Virus record (IMG/VR): IMGVR_UViG_3300007234_000010
Span: 1-36,947 of that record
Source of the DNA: a virus
Strand: one strand, 5' to 3'
DNA: 36,947 bases
Position numbers and translations under genes: made by a program. The notes under the pieces were generated by a model. The model was not told the DNA's origin, did no database searches, and saw nothing but the letters and a program-made list of their open reading frames with translations. This document shows positions 2,411 to 36,947 of this stretch, piece after piece (within the stretch, counting starts at the first letter, position 1; the number at the start of each line of letters is the position of its first letter).

Positions 2411-3529
2411 TTAAAGTTTAGAGAGGGCCGCAGTTAACTGCTTCCCGATTTGCAACACCGCTGGCCTCGGATCTGACTCCGGTGCCAACGTACTACCCGA
2501 CGAAACCGATACAACCAGATGCGACGGTAATTTTATTTTAATCTTTTTAAGCGCCTTCTCGGCCTGCGCTGGAGAAATAACTTCAAGCTCTTTGTACGGC
2601 TCAACAAGAGACTTTAACAGAAACTGCTTGGCCTTCTCTTCGCTCACCCACTGGCGCTGCGCCTGCTTGGCGACTAACTTGTAGCCTGGCACCGGGTGAT
2701 CCTTTTCAAGCATCTGGAACGCCAGCGCACGCAGGTCTTTGATGTAGTCTTCCAGTCGATCGGCTTGCTCTAATTGCATCGCGATCTGTTCTGCCGGCAG
2801 GTTAGCCAGCTGCAGTTTCAGCGCACGCTCGACTTCGCCTGTCATCTGCGGGCAGATCGGCTTGGCTGCGCACCAGCGGCAATGGTCGCCTGTTTGCATC
2901 GGCGCGTTAGGCCAACTGGCGATGCGAACGGCCTTGGCTAACTCGATTTCAAAGTCAATCACCCGCGCCGGTGTCGTCACCCAACGACGGATGGCCGGCG
3001 GCTGCACGATGATGCACTCGATTTCTTCTACGTCTTCAAAGACCCATTGTGCGGCGGGTGTTCGCATTGCCGCAGCTGCGTAAAATAGTAGCTGAGGGTT
3101 TTCCACAGCATCCACAAGTACACCATCGCCAAATTTCCAATCCAGAACGACCGCGCGTTTATTCTTACGCCCAAGTAGGTCAGTGCTACCAAAGACACCA
3201 GGCAGATAATCGCCAAACCCAACTCGGGTCTCCACCATGTATTCCATCGTCTTGTCGGGGTCGATGGTGTCGAGTGCTTCAAGAGCGGGAATAATCTTCT
3301 CATCAAGTAGCTCCTGTGTTAGAACCTGATCTTTGTAGGTGGCGCCAATGCACTGCTGTGGCGGCTTGTCGAACTCGAGTAGTTCGGCGATCACGTTGTG
3401 CAGCAGTGTGCCACGGTCTGCGTGTTCACTCGAGGGTTTGGGCGGCATCTTGGCGCAGAGTGCGACTGACGCCGGGCAGCTGATGACGCGCTTGGCAGTC
3501 GAGCCACCGACAATATTAGAATGGTTCAC
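2411..3529 (-). CDS. DUF2800-type PD-(D/E)XK exonuclease with Fe-S type cysteines
   Basis: RecB/Cas4-like nuclease for phage recombination or replication. With the start at GTG 3529 it has 372 residues: H44 in RGTLLH, D117 in GSTDLLG, D130-W-K132 as the D-x-K catalytic pair, and Q146 in NPQLLFYA. C18 plus C217, C220 and C226 match the one-plus-three cysteine layout that holds a 4Fe-4S cluster in AddB/Cas4 nucleases. I chose GTG because AGGAGA sits 5 bases upstream. The ATG at 3586 adds 19 residues, lies inside the promoter and lacks a ribosome site. It is the first gene of the leftward replication operon. Confidence 0.88.
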   Translation of the reverse strand: MNHSNIVGGSTAKRVISCPASVALCAKMPPKPSSEHADRGTLLHNVIAELLEFDKPPQQCIGATYKDQVLTQELLDEKIIPALEALDTIDPDKTMEYMVETRVGFGDYLPGVFGSTDLLGRKNKRAVVLDWKFGDGVLVDAVENPQLLFYAAAAMRTPAAQWVFEDVEEIECIIVQPPAIRRWVTTPARVIDFEIELAKAVRIASWPNAPMQTGDHCRWCAAKPICPQMTGEVERALKLQLANLPAEQIAMQLEQADRLEDYIKDLRALAFQMLEKDHPVPGYKLVAKQAQRQWVSEEKAKQFLLKSLVEPYKELEVISPAQAEKALKKIKIKLPSHLVVSVSSGSTLAPESDPRPAVLQIGKQLTAALSKL

Positions 3530-6641: not shown

Positions 6642-7115
6642 TTACTTGGGTCTTAGGGATTCGTACTGGGCGTGGCATTGCTTGAGGGCTGCGCGGAGCT
6701 CATCTGCTCTGGCAGCCTCCCCTGCAAGAAATGCTGCATCCTCTCGAGAAAGTCCTGCTCCAGTACAGCTGGTGGGGGCGCATCCAGCGCTGGCGGTACT
6801 GGGCACGGCACTGGCTTCGGCGGTGGGGCGACTGGGGCGCTCGCGCAGGCTGTTAGCAAGAGCAGCGGCGCGAGCGTTGATATTCCGAATTTCTGCATCT
6901 TTGTCCTTTCGCAATTTGTCCGCTGACGCCTGCAAGTCTTGCTCCTTCTGACGCGCGGCTTCCTGCGCTTCGGCATACGCCGCGTACTGCTGGGTCTTCT
7001 CTTTATCCCATGCCTGCTGGACCTTGGCCATGCCAAGTTCGTGGCCCTTGTACAGGCCGCCAGCGCCGGCAGCCGCTACTGCCAGCGTGGCGCCCAGGAT
7101 AAACCAAGGATTCAT
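6642..7115 (-). CDS. Inner-membrane spanin subunit (Rz-like)
   Basis: A 157-residue i-spanin. It has an N-terminal membrane anchor (residues 3-22), then a long helical periplasmic part (KVQQAWDKEKTQQYAAYAEA onward) as in Rz proteins. A second gene with a lipobox lies inside it in another frame, the hallmark of an Rz/Rz1 pair. Together they fuse inner and outer membranes in the last lysis step. ATGA overlap with the upstream secreted-protein gene. Confidence 0.88.
   Translation of the reverse strand: MNPWFILGATLAVAAAGAGGLYKGHELGMAKVQQAWDKEKTQQYAAYAEAQEAARQKEQDLQASADKLRKDKDAEIRNINARAAALANSLRERPSRPTAEASAVPSTASAGCAPTSCTGAGLSREDAAFLAGEAARADELRAALKQCHAQYESLRPK
6653..6898 (-). CDS. Outer-membrane lipoprotein spanin subunit (Rz1-like), nested in Rz
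   Basis: An 81-residue o-spanin read in a different frame wholly within the i-spanin gene. It has a signal peptide ending in the lipobox LTAC, followed by a proline-rich segment (APVAPPPKPVPCPVPP) typical of Rz1. I choose ATG 6898 because AAAGGA lies just upstream and the signal peptide starts there; the longer open frame upstream is a shadow of Rz. The mature lipoprotein should anchor in the outer membrane and bind the Rz periplasmic helix. Confidence 0.88.
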   Translation of the reverse strand: MQKFGISTLAPLLLLTACASAPVAPPPKPVPCPVPPALDAPPPAVLEQDFLERMQHFLQGRLPEQMSSAQPSSNATPSTNP

Positions 7116-7279
7116 TTGGGCGGCACTTTCGTGCCGTCGAGTTTCTTATGAACCTTGATCATTTTGCAGACTTCGACTTCTTTGCCCTTTTGCTTCTCTT
7201 TGTGGCAGACCTTTTTGGTTTCGGCAGCCAGCGATAAGTTAACAGTCAGGGCCAATAAAGTTATCAATAGCGTTTTCAT
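7112..7279 (-). CDS. Small secreted lysis-region protein
   Basis: A 55-residue frame with an N-terminal signal peptide (MKTLLITLLALTVNLSLA) and a lysine-rich mature part with two cysteines, C25 and C38, that could form a disulfide. Both ends overlap neighbours as ATGA, tying it to the holin-like and spanin genes. I have seen similar small proteins in phage lysis cassettes; the function is unknown. Confidence 0.7.
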   Translation of the reverse strand: MKTLLITLLALTVNLSLAAETKKVCHKEKQKGKEVEVCKMIKVHKKLDGTKVPPK

Positions 7280-7680
7280 TCGTCTCTCTCTGGGTGGGGT
7301 GGTTGAACTGGGGCAGGTTTGCCACCGTAGCCGACTGTTGTGGGTTCCGACTCCGTGCGTACCGTGGTCACCGTAGTGGTTACTACCGGCTTTGGTGGCT
7401 CTGGCTCTGGCTTGCTCAGATTAGGCGGCACGAACTGTGGCAGGGCTTCTTTGCCTTTAACCGCGATCAGCGTGGCCAAGGCGCCCAGGATGTACTTTGA
7501 CATGTCCGAGAGCAGCAAGAAAAACTGTTTGTCCGCTGGCGCCATGCCCGACATCGGCTGCGTCACGAACACGACCGAGTACATGGCCAGGGTCGCCATC
7601 ATGCCCAGAATTGCGCAGAACGTAATACCGATCGCGAACTTCAGATAGGCGTTAAGTTGTTCTTCGGTCAGATGCGTCAT
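7276..7680 (-). CDS. Two-pass membrane protein, likely holin
   Basis: A 134-residue protein with two hydrophobic segments (about 13-38 and 52-75) and a proline-rich charged tail (KPEPEPPKPV). Position between endolysin and spanins, and the class II-like topology, suggest the holin that opens the inner membrane for the endolysin. A further membrane protein at 8448-8702 is the competing candidate. ATGA overlaps on both sides. Confidence 0.65.
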   Translation of the reverse strand: MTHLTEEQLNAYLKFAIGITFCAILGMMATLAMYSVVFVTQPMSGMAPADKQFFLLLSDMSKYILGALATLIAVKGKEALPQFVPPNLSKPEPEPPKPVVTTTVTTVRTESEPTTVGYGGKPAPVQPPHPERDE

Positions 7681-30031: not shown

Positions 30032-30250
30032 TTACGGCCGCAAGTTATTAGCCGGCGATCGATCGCCAGATATAACAAAATCATTAGCATTGCCAGGCTG
30101 ACAATGCATTTGTTGATACCAGTCTAATAGATTCCGAAAGCCGGCGCTGATATCGCCATTACCGGCGTGAGCCAAAATCGCCACTTCCGTTTCAGTCAAA
30201 TGGCGCAAAAAGTGGCGAGTTCTAACCGAAGCAGGACGGCCAGCAGGCAT
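30032..30250 (-). CDS. Small conserved phage protein, candidate regulator
   Basis: A 72-residue protein from ATG 30250 (AGGGG 8 bases upstream). GRPASVRTRHFLRHLTETEVAI begins with an AT-hook-like GRP and a basic helix; GDISAGFRNLLDWYQ is a conserved end seen in short phage proteins. No classical helix-turn-helix seen. It is transcribed away from the ATGACCAT cluster that overlaps its likely promoter, so autoregulation is plausible. A perfect palindrome lies near its 3' end (30054-30067). Confidence 0.65.
   Translation of the reverse strand: MPAGRPASVRTRHFLRHLTETEVAILAHAGNGDISAGFRNLLDWYQQMHCQPGNANDFVISGDRSPANNLRP
30054..30067. repeat. Perfect 14-bp palindrome GGCGATCGATCGCC
   Basis: Exact dyad symmetry inside the coding sequence of the small regulator, with two GATC sites. 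It may be an operator, a hairpin at the gene's end, or a chance codon string. Confidence 0.4.
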
Positions 30251-30289: not shown

Positions 30290-30540
30290 ATGGTCAAATG
30301 GTCATTATGGTCATCATTTTAAATCGCGCCGACCCCAACGCGAAATTTTAAATTTTTGCGTGAACGTGCGACCGTAAAGTTTCGCAGAGCCTAAAATTTT
30401 CACCCATATATCTACTTACTTACTAACTTAAAAAAATAATGACCATATGACCATAAATCCGCAAAACCCGCAGCCAGGCTACGTTTTCGGCTGGTCATCG
30501 CGCCCAAAAACATGACCATAAAATGACCATTGATGACCAT
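30290..30540. promoter_or_regulatory. Cluster of nine ATGACCAT elements
   Basis: Seven exact copies of ATGACCAT or its reverse complement ATGGTCAT plus two with one mismatch, starting at 30290 (mismatch), 30298, 30307, 30439, 30447, 30491 (mismatch), 30512, 30523 and 30533. The left three point one way; 30439, 30447 and the right three point the other. Within groups the spacing is 8-11 bases, near one helical turn. The array lies between the regulator gene and the rightward operon promoter in 407 gene-free bases (30251-30657). It looks like operators or origin iterons. Confidence 0.75.
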
Positions 30541-30586
30541 AAACCGCGCCAAAAGCAAAAAAACGCATGAAAATGCAAAAGATTGT

Positions 30587-30615
30587 TTGACACATGCCGA
30601 TTTATGGTCTAACCT
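30587..30615 (+). promoter_or_regulatory. Rightward promoter of the accessory operon
   Basis: Perfect -35 TTGACA (30587-30592), then 17 bases and TAACCT (30610-30615), a weak -10. A degenerate copy of the array element (ATGGTCTA, 30604) lies in the spacer, so control by the same protein is plausible. Confidence 0.55.
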
Positions 30616-30657: not shown

Positions 30658-30843
30658 ATGACTAAATTTGAAACCAAACAAGCCGCGATCGTCGAATCAC
30701 ACGTTAACGCAGGAAATGACATTTCCGCCGCGCGCATATTGTCTTCATTAATCCGCGTGGCACGTACTGACAAAAGCCGCCGCGATTTAATTGCACTAGC
30801 CGAAGGCCTTCGTTTGGCCGGACACGTTGAATTCAGAATCTAA
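30658..30843 (+). CDS. Hypothetical small helical protein
   Basis: A 61-residue, mainly helical protein (DISAARILSSLIRVARTDKSRRDLIALAEG). GGGGCC lies 5 bases before ATG 30658. First gene of the rightward accessory operon. No family recognised. Confidence 0.7.
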   Translation: MTKFETKQAAIVESHVNAGNDISAARILSSLIRVARTDKSRRDLIALAEGLRLAGHVEFRI

Positions 30844-33125: not shown

Positions 33126-35423
33126 TTAGGCTAGGCGGACGGCTTGCGGTGCCGGTACTTCCTCGACCATGCGGCGCAATTCTGATTTCGGCAGGCCCAC
33201 CAGTTCAGGCGCGCAGAAGATATGCCGCTTGCTCTGGAATTCAGCCGAGTGTATGCGACCCATATCGACCCAGCCGGCTTCTCTGAGCGCGTGCAGCAGC
33301 GCCGCCTGGTAAATGCGCTGGTTACCTGCTACGCCGCTCTGCAGGCGGTCGCAGAGCGCATGGAAGGGGCCTGCAATCACGCCGGACGCAAACTCCGACA
33401 GCCGGCGCTCAATCAGCTCGACCAGATACGATTCACCCGAGCTGCGGCCCTGGTCGATCATGATGGCCTTTGCTTCGGTCATGGGCGGCGCGGCTGCAGG
33501 GTTGAAGGCTGACACGTCACGCGTGTGCAGGTAGGATGCAATGGCCTCAAACCCGCCCGAATGGTACCAGCGCCAGAGCTCGACAGCCTCGGCCTCGGGC
33601 AAGCGGCCGGCCTCGGACCAGACGCAAAACCAGCGCCGGTCGTTTGAGGGAATAGCGATCGCGGCCCGCTCGTTACTGAAGGCGACCACGAACACGCGGT
33701 TCAGAGCCATGTAGGGGTGAAGGCCCTTACGGTTGATTTGTAGCAGCTCTGGAGGCGCTGCGATGATGGGTTTTAGGGCATTCTCGAGCGCTCGCCGATC
33801 GCGTGCCTCAGACTGGCGCAGCTCGGCAATTTCCATGACTTCGCACTCGAGCGCGTAGCCCCACTGACTATTCAGGTCTTCGTTCTTGACCAGGCTGCAG
33901 TTCTGCTTAGTCTTGCCGCCAATGGCCCAGAAAAACGGCGCCATCATGGTGTCTTTGCCCGAGCCTGGGTGGCCGCCGATCAGGATTGCGTGGTTGATCT
34001 TCTGGTTCGGGTTTTGGACCTTGAAGGCCAGCGCGTTTAAAACGTGCTCGCGCTCGAAATCGGTCGGGATCATGCGCTCGACATGCGCAAGCCATCGGGT
34101 CACGTCGCCTGGGATGCCTGCAGGCCGAGCGTCGCGCCAGCGGTTGCCGTACTGGTGGCCCTCACGCTCGACGATCTTGGGCTCGCCGGCGGCATACGTT
34201 ATGCCGACCAGCGCATGAGCGCCCTCTGATTGGCGATTCTCGTCGAAACATGTAGACGCTTCAATTTTGCTGCCGTTATGTATGGACCTGCAGGGGATAT
34301 GCCGGAAAAGTGCGTTAAAAGTAGATCGAGAAATCTCCCGACGATCTTCCAGATCAAAAAAGCTCTCATCTTCCTGAACATAGGCAAACCTCGTAAACCA
34401 GTCGGCTTTTTCGAGCCTGTTTAATTCCCGGCGCTCGTTCTTTGCTTCAATATCCTTGATGATATGTTCGGCGCTGTCTTCGAACATGCCTGAATCGGGG
34501 ATTTTTGACAAGGCAGTCGTCATCACTTGCGCGAGCAGCTCGTCACGCAAGCCAGGCGAGTGCTTTGGCCCGCCCTGCCCTGCTACCCAGTCGAGAAACG
34601 TCTGCGAGTCGAAGTCGAGGCAGTGCGAGTGCAGGCAGCAGTACGCCCGGTTGGCCGGGTGGTAGCGCCCTTCAGGATTGCCGTCGGTGTGCTCGCCGTG
34701 GTTCGGGCAAACGACGCCCATCCAGCCCTCGGGGTTCGGGTGCCGCAGGATCATGCCCTGGTCCGAGAGCCAGCGCATCACATCGTCGTTGCCGTCGTCT
34801 GCGACGCGGATAGCCACCGGCCCCAGCCGCACGCTCTCGTCCGGCACGACGTCAAGCGCTGCGCAGATTTGCTCGAGCGTGTATTCGCGCTCGGGATTGA
34901 AGCGGGCGAGCTGTGCCTTAAAGCCGTCCTTGCCGGGCTTGAGATTGACCGAGCCGGGTAAGCGGAAGTTGCGCACCGGGTTGCAGGCACCGGGATCCGT
35001 GTAGCCGGCGTTGGCGATCGCGCGGATAGCGGCTGCGAAGTCGGCTTTGGTCGGCTGTTCGGAAAAGACGTAGCCCCACTGGAATGAGCCGGGCGACGTC
35101 TCCATGATCCAGGTGGGCTCTAACGGCGGTGTTTTCGATTTGGTGCCGATGTCGTCCAACATCATGACCAGGATGTACTCGCAGTTGGCAATACTTGCGC
35201 TCGGCTTGCCCTTGAAGCGGTCGATGATGAAGGAGGCCGTGTTGCCGTACCAGCTCTCGCCATCCTTGCGCTTGTGGTTCGGGTAGTAGGCCGGCCATGT
35301 GGCCTTGATCGCGCCGTCTGCGTGGAATTGCATCTGGCCGCCCGCGAGGATGGGCTTCTGGCGCACGATCAGCGCAGTCTCACCTTCGGGCGCGAGACTG
35401 GTGTAGAATTCTAAAAAACTCAT
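33126..35423 (-). CDS. Primase-helicase (AEP-type primase with DUF5906-like helicase)
   Basis: A 765-residue replication protein. The N-terminal part has D90-D91 (LVMMLDDIG) and FRLPGSVNLKPG (153-164), typical of RepB-type archaeo-eukaryotic primases. A zinc-binding set lies at 239-268 (C239, H242, C262, C263, H265, C268). The C-terminal part is a superfamily 3-like helicase with Walker A GGHPGSGKD (483-491). AAGGAC precedes ATG 35423. It would prime and unwind DNA for the polymerase encoded upstream in the same operon. Confidence 0.88.
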   Translation of the reverse strand: MSFLEFYTSLAPEGETALIVRQKPILAGGQMQFHADGAIKATWPAYYPNHKRKDGESWYGNTASFIIDRFKGKPSASIANCEYILVMMLDDIGTKSKTPPLEPTWIMETSPGSFQWGYVFSEQPTKADFAAAIRAIANAGYTDPGACNPVRNFRLPGSVNLKPGKDGFKAQLARFNPEREYTLEQICAALDVVPDESVRLGPVAIRVADDGNDDVMRWLSDQGMILRHPNPEGWMGVVCPNHGEHTDGNPEGRYHPANRAYCCLHSHCLDFDSQTFLDWVAGQGGPKHSPGLRDELLAQVMTTALSKIPDSGMFEDSAEHIIKDIEAKNERRELNRLEKADWFTRFAYVQEDESFFDLEDRREISRSTFNALFRHIPCRSIHNGSKIEASTCFDENRQSEGAHALVGITYAAGEPKIVEREGHQYGNRWRDARPAGIPGDVTRWLAHVERMIPTDFEREHVLNALAFKVQNPNQKINHAILIGGHPGSGKDTMMAPFFWAIGGKTKQNCSLVKNEDLNSQWGYALECEVMEIAELRQSEARDRRALENALKPIIAAPPELLQINRKGLHPYMALNRVFVVAFSNERAAIAIPSNDRRWFCVWSEAGRLPEAEAVELWRWYHSGGFEAIASYLHTRDVSAFNPAAAPPMTEAKAIMIDQGRSSGESYLVELIERRLSEFASGVIAGPFHALCDRLQSGVAGNQRIYQAALLHALREAGWVDMGRIHSAEFQSKRHIFCAPELVGLPKSELRRMVEEVPAPQAVRLA

Positions 35424-35467: not shown

Positions 35468-35917
35468 TTATTTAATTAATCTTTCCCAACGTATACGGGC
35501 TATATTGGCGGACCCTATATCTGCTCGCCTACGTCCAGGCCTATCCCACCCTTTATTCGCATTTAACTCCGCTACCAAAGTCCAACCTGCGCCACGCAAC
35601 GAGGCACCTGACTCCTGATGCTGTGTATAGGTGATGCATTTAGCGTAGCCTAACGCGGTAGCGGCTCTGACGATTGCCCCATAAAGCATCGAATTCGCAT
35701 TGCGGGTTCCATCTGTACAAGAACGAGTAATTTCTAATGTTAACCCGTCATCTAACATTCGCGCGATGGGCCGACCTGCTACAGCTACACCAACTAATTT
35801 GTTTTCGCTCGTAAATAAACCAACGCTAAATTTATGCCCTATAGGCGGTCTGTTATGACGATGATGCTCTGCTATAAATTGTTGCGCTAGTTTAAGCGAT
35901 ATGGGTCTTATTCTCAT
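35468..35917 (-). CDS. XF1762-like GNAT-fold protein
   Basis: A 149-residue protein of the XF1762 family, related to GNAT acetyltransferases. Typical segments are FIAEHHRHNRPPIGHKFSVG, GRPIARMLDDGLTLEITR and TYTQHQESGASLRGAGW. Substrate unknown; modification of a host or phage protein is possible. It lies between polymerase and primase, starts in the polymerase stop (ATGA), and is more AT-rich than both, suggesting an inserted cargo gene. Confidence 0.85.
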   Translation of the reverse strand: MRIRPISLKLAQQFIAEHHRHNRPPIGHKFSVGLFTSENKLVGVAVAGRPIARMLDDGLTLEITRSCTDGTRNANSMLYGAIVRAATALGYAKCITYTQHQESGASLRGAGWTLVAELNANKGWDRPGRRRADIGSANIARIRWERLIK

Positions 35918-36947
35918 TTTCCATACCTCGTCATAGTTTCAACCTCTGCCGACAAAGGCAGACCCGCAGCCCATGCGGGCGGCGTACACATCACTTGCTT
36001 TAGGGTATTGGGTGCATCAGGGTCGGCGGTCTCTAGAACGATCTCATCATGGACATGCAGCACGACGTCATCAAGCTGGCGTAAAGCATTCCGCAGCAGA
36101 TCGTTGGCGACTGCTTGCGTTATGTTCTCACAAGCCAGACCCCGCCACAAGCGTGCCCGTGGCCATTCTTTGGCATCCGCCGCCGGTTTCCATGCCGCCT
36201 TCACATAAGTGATCTCATCACCCTCAAACTTAGCAAATGGATAGCACAGGATGCGCCCCGACGGCAGCGCGTACCAGAGGTGTTGGCGGTCATACAGGTA
36301 TGTCACCCGCCCGGCGGTAAACTCCCGCCCAGGATTCCTGAGCGCCCGCGTGTAGGCGTCCTCGAGCTTGGTCCAGTAGCGCACGGCCCAGGCGTTCGAG
36401 CGCCGCCACGCGTCTACAATGCGGCGAGAGTCCGACTCGGCCATGATGACGCCGTAGTTGCGGCCCATCGCCGAAAACGCTCCGATCGAGCCGCCGAAGC
36501 CCAGCGACAGGATCGCGACCTTGCCGATCTGGCGCTGCTCTTTATCGACGTTATCCTCGGGCACCCGGTAGATACCGGCGGCTTCCCGCTTGTAGATGTC
36601 GCGGCCCTCGCGAAAGACCTGCAGCACCTCGTCAGCCTGTGGGTCGGCTGACGCCCAGGCGGTGACGCGAGCTTCGACCGCTGACCAGTCGGCGACAACG
36701 AACTGTTTGCCGGGCGCCGGGATCAGTGCGGGCCGGAGCATTCCCTTGAGAACATCTGTAGTGCGTTTTCCAAATCTTGGGGTGATGCTGTGGCCTCGGA
36801 CCATAGCGTGCCTAACGTCATCTGGCTCTGCGGCGCACTTGCGCGTAAAGTTGTGAACTTGCGCGCCATAGCTTGAAGCACGTCCGGTGGCAGATCCTCC
36901 TGCAAATACGAAAGCACCTCGTACTCGGTGATCGTCTTCATCTGCCA
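35914..36947 (-). CDS. DNA polymerase I family (C-terminal part; continued from base 1)
   Basis: The polymerase domain, residues 343-646 of the joined protein plus the repeated 120-base overlap at the window end. Motif A is VVADWSAVEAR (D389, E394, R396), motif B is around RQIGKVAILSLGFGG (441-455), and motif C is H602-D603-E604 in LHVHDEIVLE. All catalytic acids are present. An apparent start at ATG 36804 is internal; the frame is open across the junction. The stop overlaps the XF1762-like start. Confidence 0.95.
   Translation of the reverse strand, partial: ADEDDHRVRGAFVFAGGSATGRASSYGAQVHNFTRKCAAEPDDVRHAMVRGHSITPRFGKRTTDVLKGMLRPALIPAPGKQFVVADWSAVEARVTAWASADPQADEVLQVFREGRDIYKREAAGIYRVPEDNVDKEQRQIGKVAILSLGFGGSIGAFSAMGRNYGVIMAESDSRRIVDAWRRSNAWAVRYWTKLEDAYTRALRNPGREFTAGRVTYLYDRQHLWYALPSGRILCYPFAKFEGDEITYVKAAWKPAADAKEWPRARLWRGLACENITQAVANDLLRNALRQLDDVVLHVHDEIVLETADPDAPNTLKQVMCTPPAWAAGLPLSAEVETMTRYGK
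36828..36947. repeat. Terminal direct repeat, right copy
   Basis: Identical to bases 1-120. Removing one copy gives a circular map of 36,827 bp with the polymerase gene restored. Confidence 0.97.

Follow-up and report, generated by a model that had tools for sequence, protein, structure and literature searches.

What nine copies of one short word are doing between a small gene and an accessory operon, and which protein reads them, is the question raised by this phage record. The window, that is, the whole stretch of DNA analysed here, is the entire record of 36,947 bases, and its gene set comprises terminase, portal, DNA polymerase, exonuclease, helicase, lysis and primase-helicase genes. The two ends of the record (1-1033 and 35914-36947) both fall within the DNA polymerase gene, which suggests a complete genome that is circular or circularly permuted. 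A nucleotide search of phage records with this sequence returned no match.

The nine repeats lie within 251 bp (30290-30540). Seven are exact copies of ATGACCAT, found on the minus strand at 30298 and 30307 and on the plus strand at 30439, 30447, 30512, 30523 and 30533; the other two, both on the minus strand, have one mismatch each and lie at 30290 (TTGACCAT) and 30491 (ATGACCAG). A previous sequence-only reading of this DNA had counted seven exact and two one-mismatch copies in 251 bases, and our recount returned the same numbers, groups and orientations. That reading had also placed the array beyond chance, and the expectation bears this out: counting both strands, chance would put 0.99 exact copies of ATGACCAT in the whole window versus the seven seen, all of which fall within 243 bp, and in 60 Markov-1 shuffles no 8-mer exceeded three copies in 251 bp. 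Equal density of the octamer elsewhere, named at the time as an outcome that would speak against the array, was not found; the record holds no exact copy of ATGACCAT outside the array, so the repeats are clustered and unique to the locus, and it holds no second exact repeat cluster. Sites within a group are spaced by 8-11 bp, and the locus is laid out as follows.

30032-30250, minus strand: gene for a small basic protein of 72 residues, a conserved neighbour of the array and, from comparison of relatives, not its reader.
30290-30314, minus strand: tandem triple of sites, TTGACCAT at 30290-30297 and ATGACCAT at 30298-30305 and 30307-30314 (spacings 8 and 9), the '+++' triple kept in relatives.
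30317-30328, no strand assigned: conserved block adjoining the triple, CGCGATTTAAAA on the minus strand and AGCGATT-AAA in relatives (compared by eye).
30396-30438, no strand assigned: AT-rich stretch, a candidate unwinding element by its composition.
30439-30454, plus strand: central tandem pair (30439-30446 and 30447-30454), the '--' pair kept in relatives at a spacing of 8-9.
30491-30498, minus strand: single inverted site, ATGACCAG, with one mismatch; many relatives have an exact copy of their word here.
30512-30540, plus strand: outer group, with sites at 30512, 30523 and 30533 (spacings 11 and 10).
30587-30615, plus strand: promoter-like TTGACA-17-TAACCT of the accessory operon, found by eye.

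The triple precedes the small gene by 40 bp, and about 50 bp separate the outer group from the operon promoter. Between triple and outer group, the AT-rich stretch is 79% A+T, at the 99.95th percentile among 43-bp windows, and directly adjoins the central pair. The -35 element TTGACA of the operon promoter is kept in relatives, one of which (L085; relatives are given here by locus number) reads TTGACA-17-TATACT by eye; a consensus promoter scan did not list the element at 30587-30615. The degenerate copy that the sequence-only reading had placed at this promoter (TATGGTCT, at 30603) is not preserved among the relatives and probably lies outside the array proper. GC skew, which had been recommended as a check for an origin, does not turn at the array and says nothing for or against one.

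Relatives were gathered via the small gene (14 loci), the terminase (80 loci) and the primase-helicase (at least 80 loci, drawn from more than 500 matching stretches in IMG/VR). The array holds the same position in them, between the accessory operon and a presumed small terminase, TerS, whose identity rests on position only. Read on the minus strand, its layout is ---+--+++, with three sites one way, one reversed, two, and then three the other way, and its spacings are near-constant (~9-12, 22-24, 43-45, 8-9 and 8-9, with a middle spacer of ~98-143). The full pattern was recovered at one mismatch in 20 of 52 distinct candidate arrays, many others being partial and a few (L045, L062 and L081) not being arrays of this kind; array detection failed in several distant loci. 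Conservation of the array, which had been held essential to its interpretation, is thus found for the nine-site layout and not for the octamer. In the window and in the relatives nearest to it the word is TTGACCAT or ATGACCAT, and other relatives use TTGCCTACA, TCGCCTACA, TTGCCGACA, TTGCCCTCA, TTGCCCGCA, TTGCCCACA, TGACCCACA, TGACGTGCA, TGACTAACA, TTGCTTACA, TTGCCAACA or TTGTCCACA. The sites of one array change together, such that one phage has one word or two close forms, and since the word is altered at about nine places at once, its reader must be expected to have altered with it.

Other repeats were also seen in some of these loci. In the group whose primases are 69-71% identical, the region that separates the iteron triple from the terminase genes contains a second repeat array, built from palindromes with the form GTTAGTGnnnACTAAC (for example L139:5800-6003, L116:7680-7760 and L257:10337-10449), and in some relatives the primase gene has short tandem repeats of GCGGCAATA or GGCGGCAAT downstream of it (L109:10894-10930, L092:1826). 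The contigs of L297 and L299 were binned with Rhodoferax, and the hosts are therefore probably Burkholderiales.

Among the proteins shared by these loci, the primase-helicase follows the word most closely. Nearest neighbours had the same word in 40 of 51 cases for this protein, in 28/37 for the C-terminal part of the polymerase, in 17/34 for TerL, in 18/36 for the small protein and in 15/37 for TerS, and when all reading frames that are widely shared were scanned automatically, none was a better general candidate than the primase-helicase. TerS, TerL, portal, helicase, exonuclease and polymerase were rejected as readers on the basis of near-identical members with different words or poorer prediction; the operon's first gene (30658-30843) goes with the word in 7/8 cases, but with a cluster of only 12 members it cannot act as the reader in general. 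Inside the primase-helicase, residues 684-765 predict the word by nearest neighbour at 0.81-0.83, and stretches elsewhere in the protein at 0.41-0.71. The top columns among 2,238 variable ones from nine protein families were primase positions 725 and 730, with an adjusted mutual information with the word of 0.603 and 0.580, respectively, followed by 0.444 for the next column. The corresponding features in the window are these.

33126-35423, minus strand: primase-helicase of 765 residues, the proposed array reader and initiator (profile matches and co-variation).
33213-33440, minus strand: predicted C-terminal winged helix, residues 662-737 (AlphaFold2; winged-helix structural matches with Z 4-6).
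33228-33251, minus strand: wing residues 725-732 (HSAEFQSK), the putative specificity segment (co-variation and AlphaFold2).

The primase-helicase matches RepB_primase at residues 84-170, DUF5906 at 482-597 and a PHROG DNA primase family, and has no Toprim match in Pfam. Its AlphaFold2 model has a middling overall pLDDT of 79.6, rising to about 88-94 in the winged-helix domain, and places residues 725-732 as a wing between two strands; an assignment of residues 724-732 to a recognition helix was dropped, given that the model puts this segment in the wing. Structural matches to the domain are winged-helix proteins, all of them weak (best Foldseek E 0.09; VIA Z no higher than 6.2), and a profile search of solved structures with the C-terminal domain returned nothing useful. 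The third helix, which precedes the wing, is strongly conserved and may contact the part that the words have in common.

Closely related pairs place the word differences in the wing. The primases of L016 (TTGCCCTCA) and L103 (TTGACCAT) are 98% identical and their words differ; they have 7 differences over 696 core positions versus 7 over the 9 positions 724-732 (p = 7e-12). L098 and L168 differ by one base in the word and by five residues in the protein, including 729 and 730. Where the word is the same, most pairs with 9-61 differences in the core differ at 0-2 wing positions, and one same-word pair, L250/L162, differs at four, against the pattern. The register of the nine-base word was set by likeness to TTATCCACA before the rules for positions 7 and 8 were seen. 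In this register, Arg727 is paired with C at word position 8 in 55/55 primases and the lack of Arg727 with another base in 11/11 (66 primases in total), and at residue 726 Ser accompanies A at position 7, and Thr another base, in 65/66. On the core tree, which is the tree of the primase-helicase outside the wing segment, Arg727 and C8 changed about five times each, the 726 trait and position 7 changed 11 and 10 times, and about 30 word changes are reconstructed. Fisher values of p ~1e-12 are not true probabilities, the sequences being related, and it is the repeated changes that constitute the evidence.

Loci fetched later agree with this co-variation. In L257, R727S accompanies a change from TTGTCCAC to TTGTCCAT, which ends in CCATA and not in CCACA; L299 combines Lys725 and Asp730 with TTGTCCACA; and L278 has the wing and the word of the TTGCTTACA group, though its nearest core primase uses TTGTCCACA. 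L074 (M725, TGACTA) and L297 also agree with the code, and Asn725-Thr726 occurs with TGACGTGCA in three separate backgrounds (L024, L232 and L231). The held-out set was small, at 24 distinct primases, which serves as support and not as a formal test. The wing does not track the first half of the word, TTGC or TGAC, as seen where L050 and L040 share a wing with L155, and the arrays of L014 and L028 mix TTGC and TGAC forms. L112 compared with L154 and L167 gives weak exceptions to the code, and a rule by which S725 or G725 would separate TTGCCCTCA from TTGCCCGCA was discarded as not clean, the arrays of the G725 group mixing both words. The distant podovirus relative L296 (MW202483) has a word near TGTTTACA and a differing wing, CFAPELSTK, and encodes a stand-alone DnaA domain IV (Bac_DnaA_C, 7083-7379) in its accessory operon. 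Array and primase gene are separated by about 2.5 kb, a distance at which linkage may contribute to the association of word and wing. Judged from these comparisons, wing and word have switched together across the relatives, and the replicons of related phages therefore probably do not cross-react.

Several characterized systems resemble parts of this arrangement. The phage P4 alpha protein, as described in PMC4234260 (citing Ziegelin and Lanka 1995 and Yeo et al. 2002), unites primase and helicase in one protein, and its C-terminal winged helix binds origin repeats, after which it unwinds and primes. The phage protein examined here is likewise a primase-helicase with a predicted C-terminal winged helix, at middling scores, and its proposed targets are iterons, as at the P4 ori with its type I iterons. 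It differs in having a RepB_primase N-terminus in place of the bacterial-type Toprim primase, and the record has no second array like crr. P4 alpha was absent from the listed results of the profile and structure searches, which excludes nothing. The primase-helicase is thus not a member of the P4 alpha family as defined, yet by analogy would work like one. The replication protein of pRN1 has an AEP primase, an SF3 helicase and a C-terminal winged helix, with a small DNA-binding repressor gene alongside (PMC4234260); the domain order looks similar here (RepB_primase and DUF5906 matches and the winged-helix model), and a small gene likewise lies nearby, but the pRN1 origin is a stem-loop without iterons (PMC4234260), in contrast to the nine iterons of the phage. 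In the PLE satellite of Vibrio cholerae and ICP1, RepA and its iterons vary in concert, and replication requires a cognate pair (PMC8263062). PLE RepA is of the RepA_N type and pairs with semi-palindromic iterons of about 30 bp through swaps of whole domains, whereas here a word of 8-9 bp appears to be retuned via a few residues of one wing. In the winged helix of RFX1 it is the wing, not the helix, that reads the major groove (PMC4333399). Specificity residues are placed in the wing here as well, a comparison of the mode of reading only; RFX1, unlike the phage protein, is a eukaryotic transcription factor.

Taken together, the co-variation, the conserved layout and the AT-rich stretch make it very likely that the array is the iteron-bearing replication origin of the phage and that its reader is the phage's own primase-helicase. 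The locus combines clustered, unique repeats with an adjoining AT-rich stretch and a co-varying primase-helicase encoded by the phage itself, and of the two functions offered by the sequence-only reading, an operator array or origin iterons, it is the second that gains from these results. Copies of the primase-helicase would dock through the wing on the three groups of sites, and the stretch at 30396-30438 would then, by analogy, melt. The helicase part would be loaded at the melted stretch and the primase part would lay the first primers. The bound initiator could conceivably also damp transcription of the small gene and the operon, as the sites are near both.

A related explanation grants that the wing reads the array and makes the array a regulatory or copy-control site, with replication starting elsewhere. 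The sites flank two promoters, co-variation demonstrates reading and not firing, and the same kind of protein in P4 also uses a second site, crr. Against this, an AT-rich stretch and grouped iterons are the anatomy of an origin and the window contains no second array, and we give this explanation a small chance.

Still less probable is that the array is an operator for the 72-residue protein, which would repress its own gene and the accessory operon, as the sequence-only reading had envisaged. The small gene is always near the array, its product has a basic N-terminus and two predicted helices, which suit a small DNA-binding protein, and short tandem operators are common among small regulators; the protein had no Pfam, PHROG or PDB match, and a profile search of solved structures and Foldseek were unhelpful. 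Examined as a candidate ribbon-helix-helix (RHH) regulator, it thus offers the two predicted helices and no profile or fold match. However, L013 and L159 encode identical small proteins beside TGACCCACA and TTGCCCTCA, and those of L083 and L084, which are 98.6% identical and do not differ at all in residues 1-58, stand beside TTGCCTACA and TTGACCAT, which largely refutes this role. The same word is also found beside differing small proteins, and the 18/36 recorded for this protein is a poor prediction of the word.

That the sites serve host DnaA, or a phage DnaA-like HTH protein, is very improbable. Several words resemble DnaA boxes (TTGTCCACA vs TTATCCACA) and the distant relative MW202483 encodes a Bac_DnaA_C protein, but the words vary far past a DnaA box (TGACGTGCA, TTGACCAT), the window accessory proteins that were scanned gave no DnaA-domain match, and the code sits in the primase wing. 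The DnaA-box pattern TTWTNCACA is absent from the array and has two plus-strand occurrences, at 3099 and 16422. DnaA-trio-like TAG/TAA repeats by the central pair were considered and dropped, being present in some relatives (L103) and not in all. Lastly, a packaging (pac) site for the neighbouring small terminase would fit the position of the array upstream of the presumed small-terminase gene but is scarcely credible, because presumed small terminases that are 100% identical occur with different words (L083/L091 and L087/L105).

Primase-helicases that carry a C-terminal winged helix and read iteron origins are already known. The apparent novelty is that nature supplies some 14 words and the wings that match them: the initiator changes in concert with all of its sites, and outside the wing the proteins are up to 98-99% identical; we found no paper on such a word-wing code in a literature search that leaves out most subscription journals. 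It is likely that in this large family of freshwater phages the nine-site origin word has changed as a whole, along with a few wing residues of the initiator and according to simple residue-base rules, in some 30 word changes inferred on one tree. Escape from a nuclease that mimics the initiator and attacks the origin, as in Vibrio satellites, is a possible driver of such change (PMC8263062), and by analogy the word changes seen here have perhaps been driven by co-infection competition, satellites or origin-directed nucleases. The matched small initiator-origin pairs provide material for comparing specificity in vitro, and they make testable both how a DNA-binding protein with nine simultaneous targets changes its specificity and why phage origins diversify. 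If the origin assignment is true, these phages would represent a natural series of orthogonal origin-initiator pairs.
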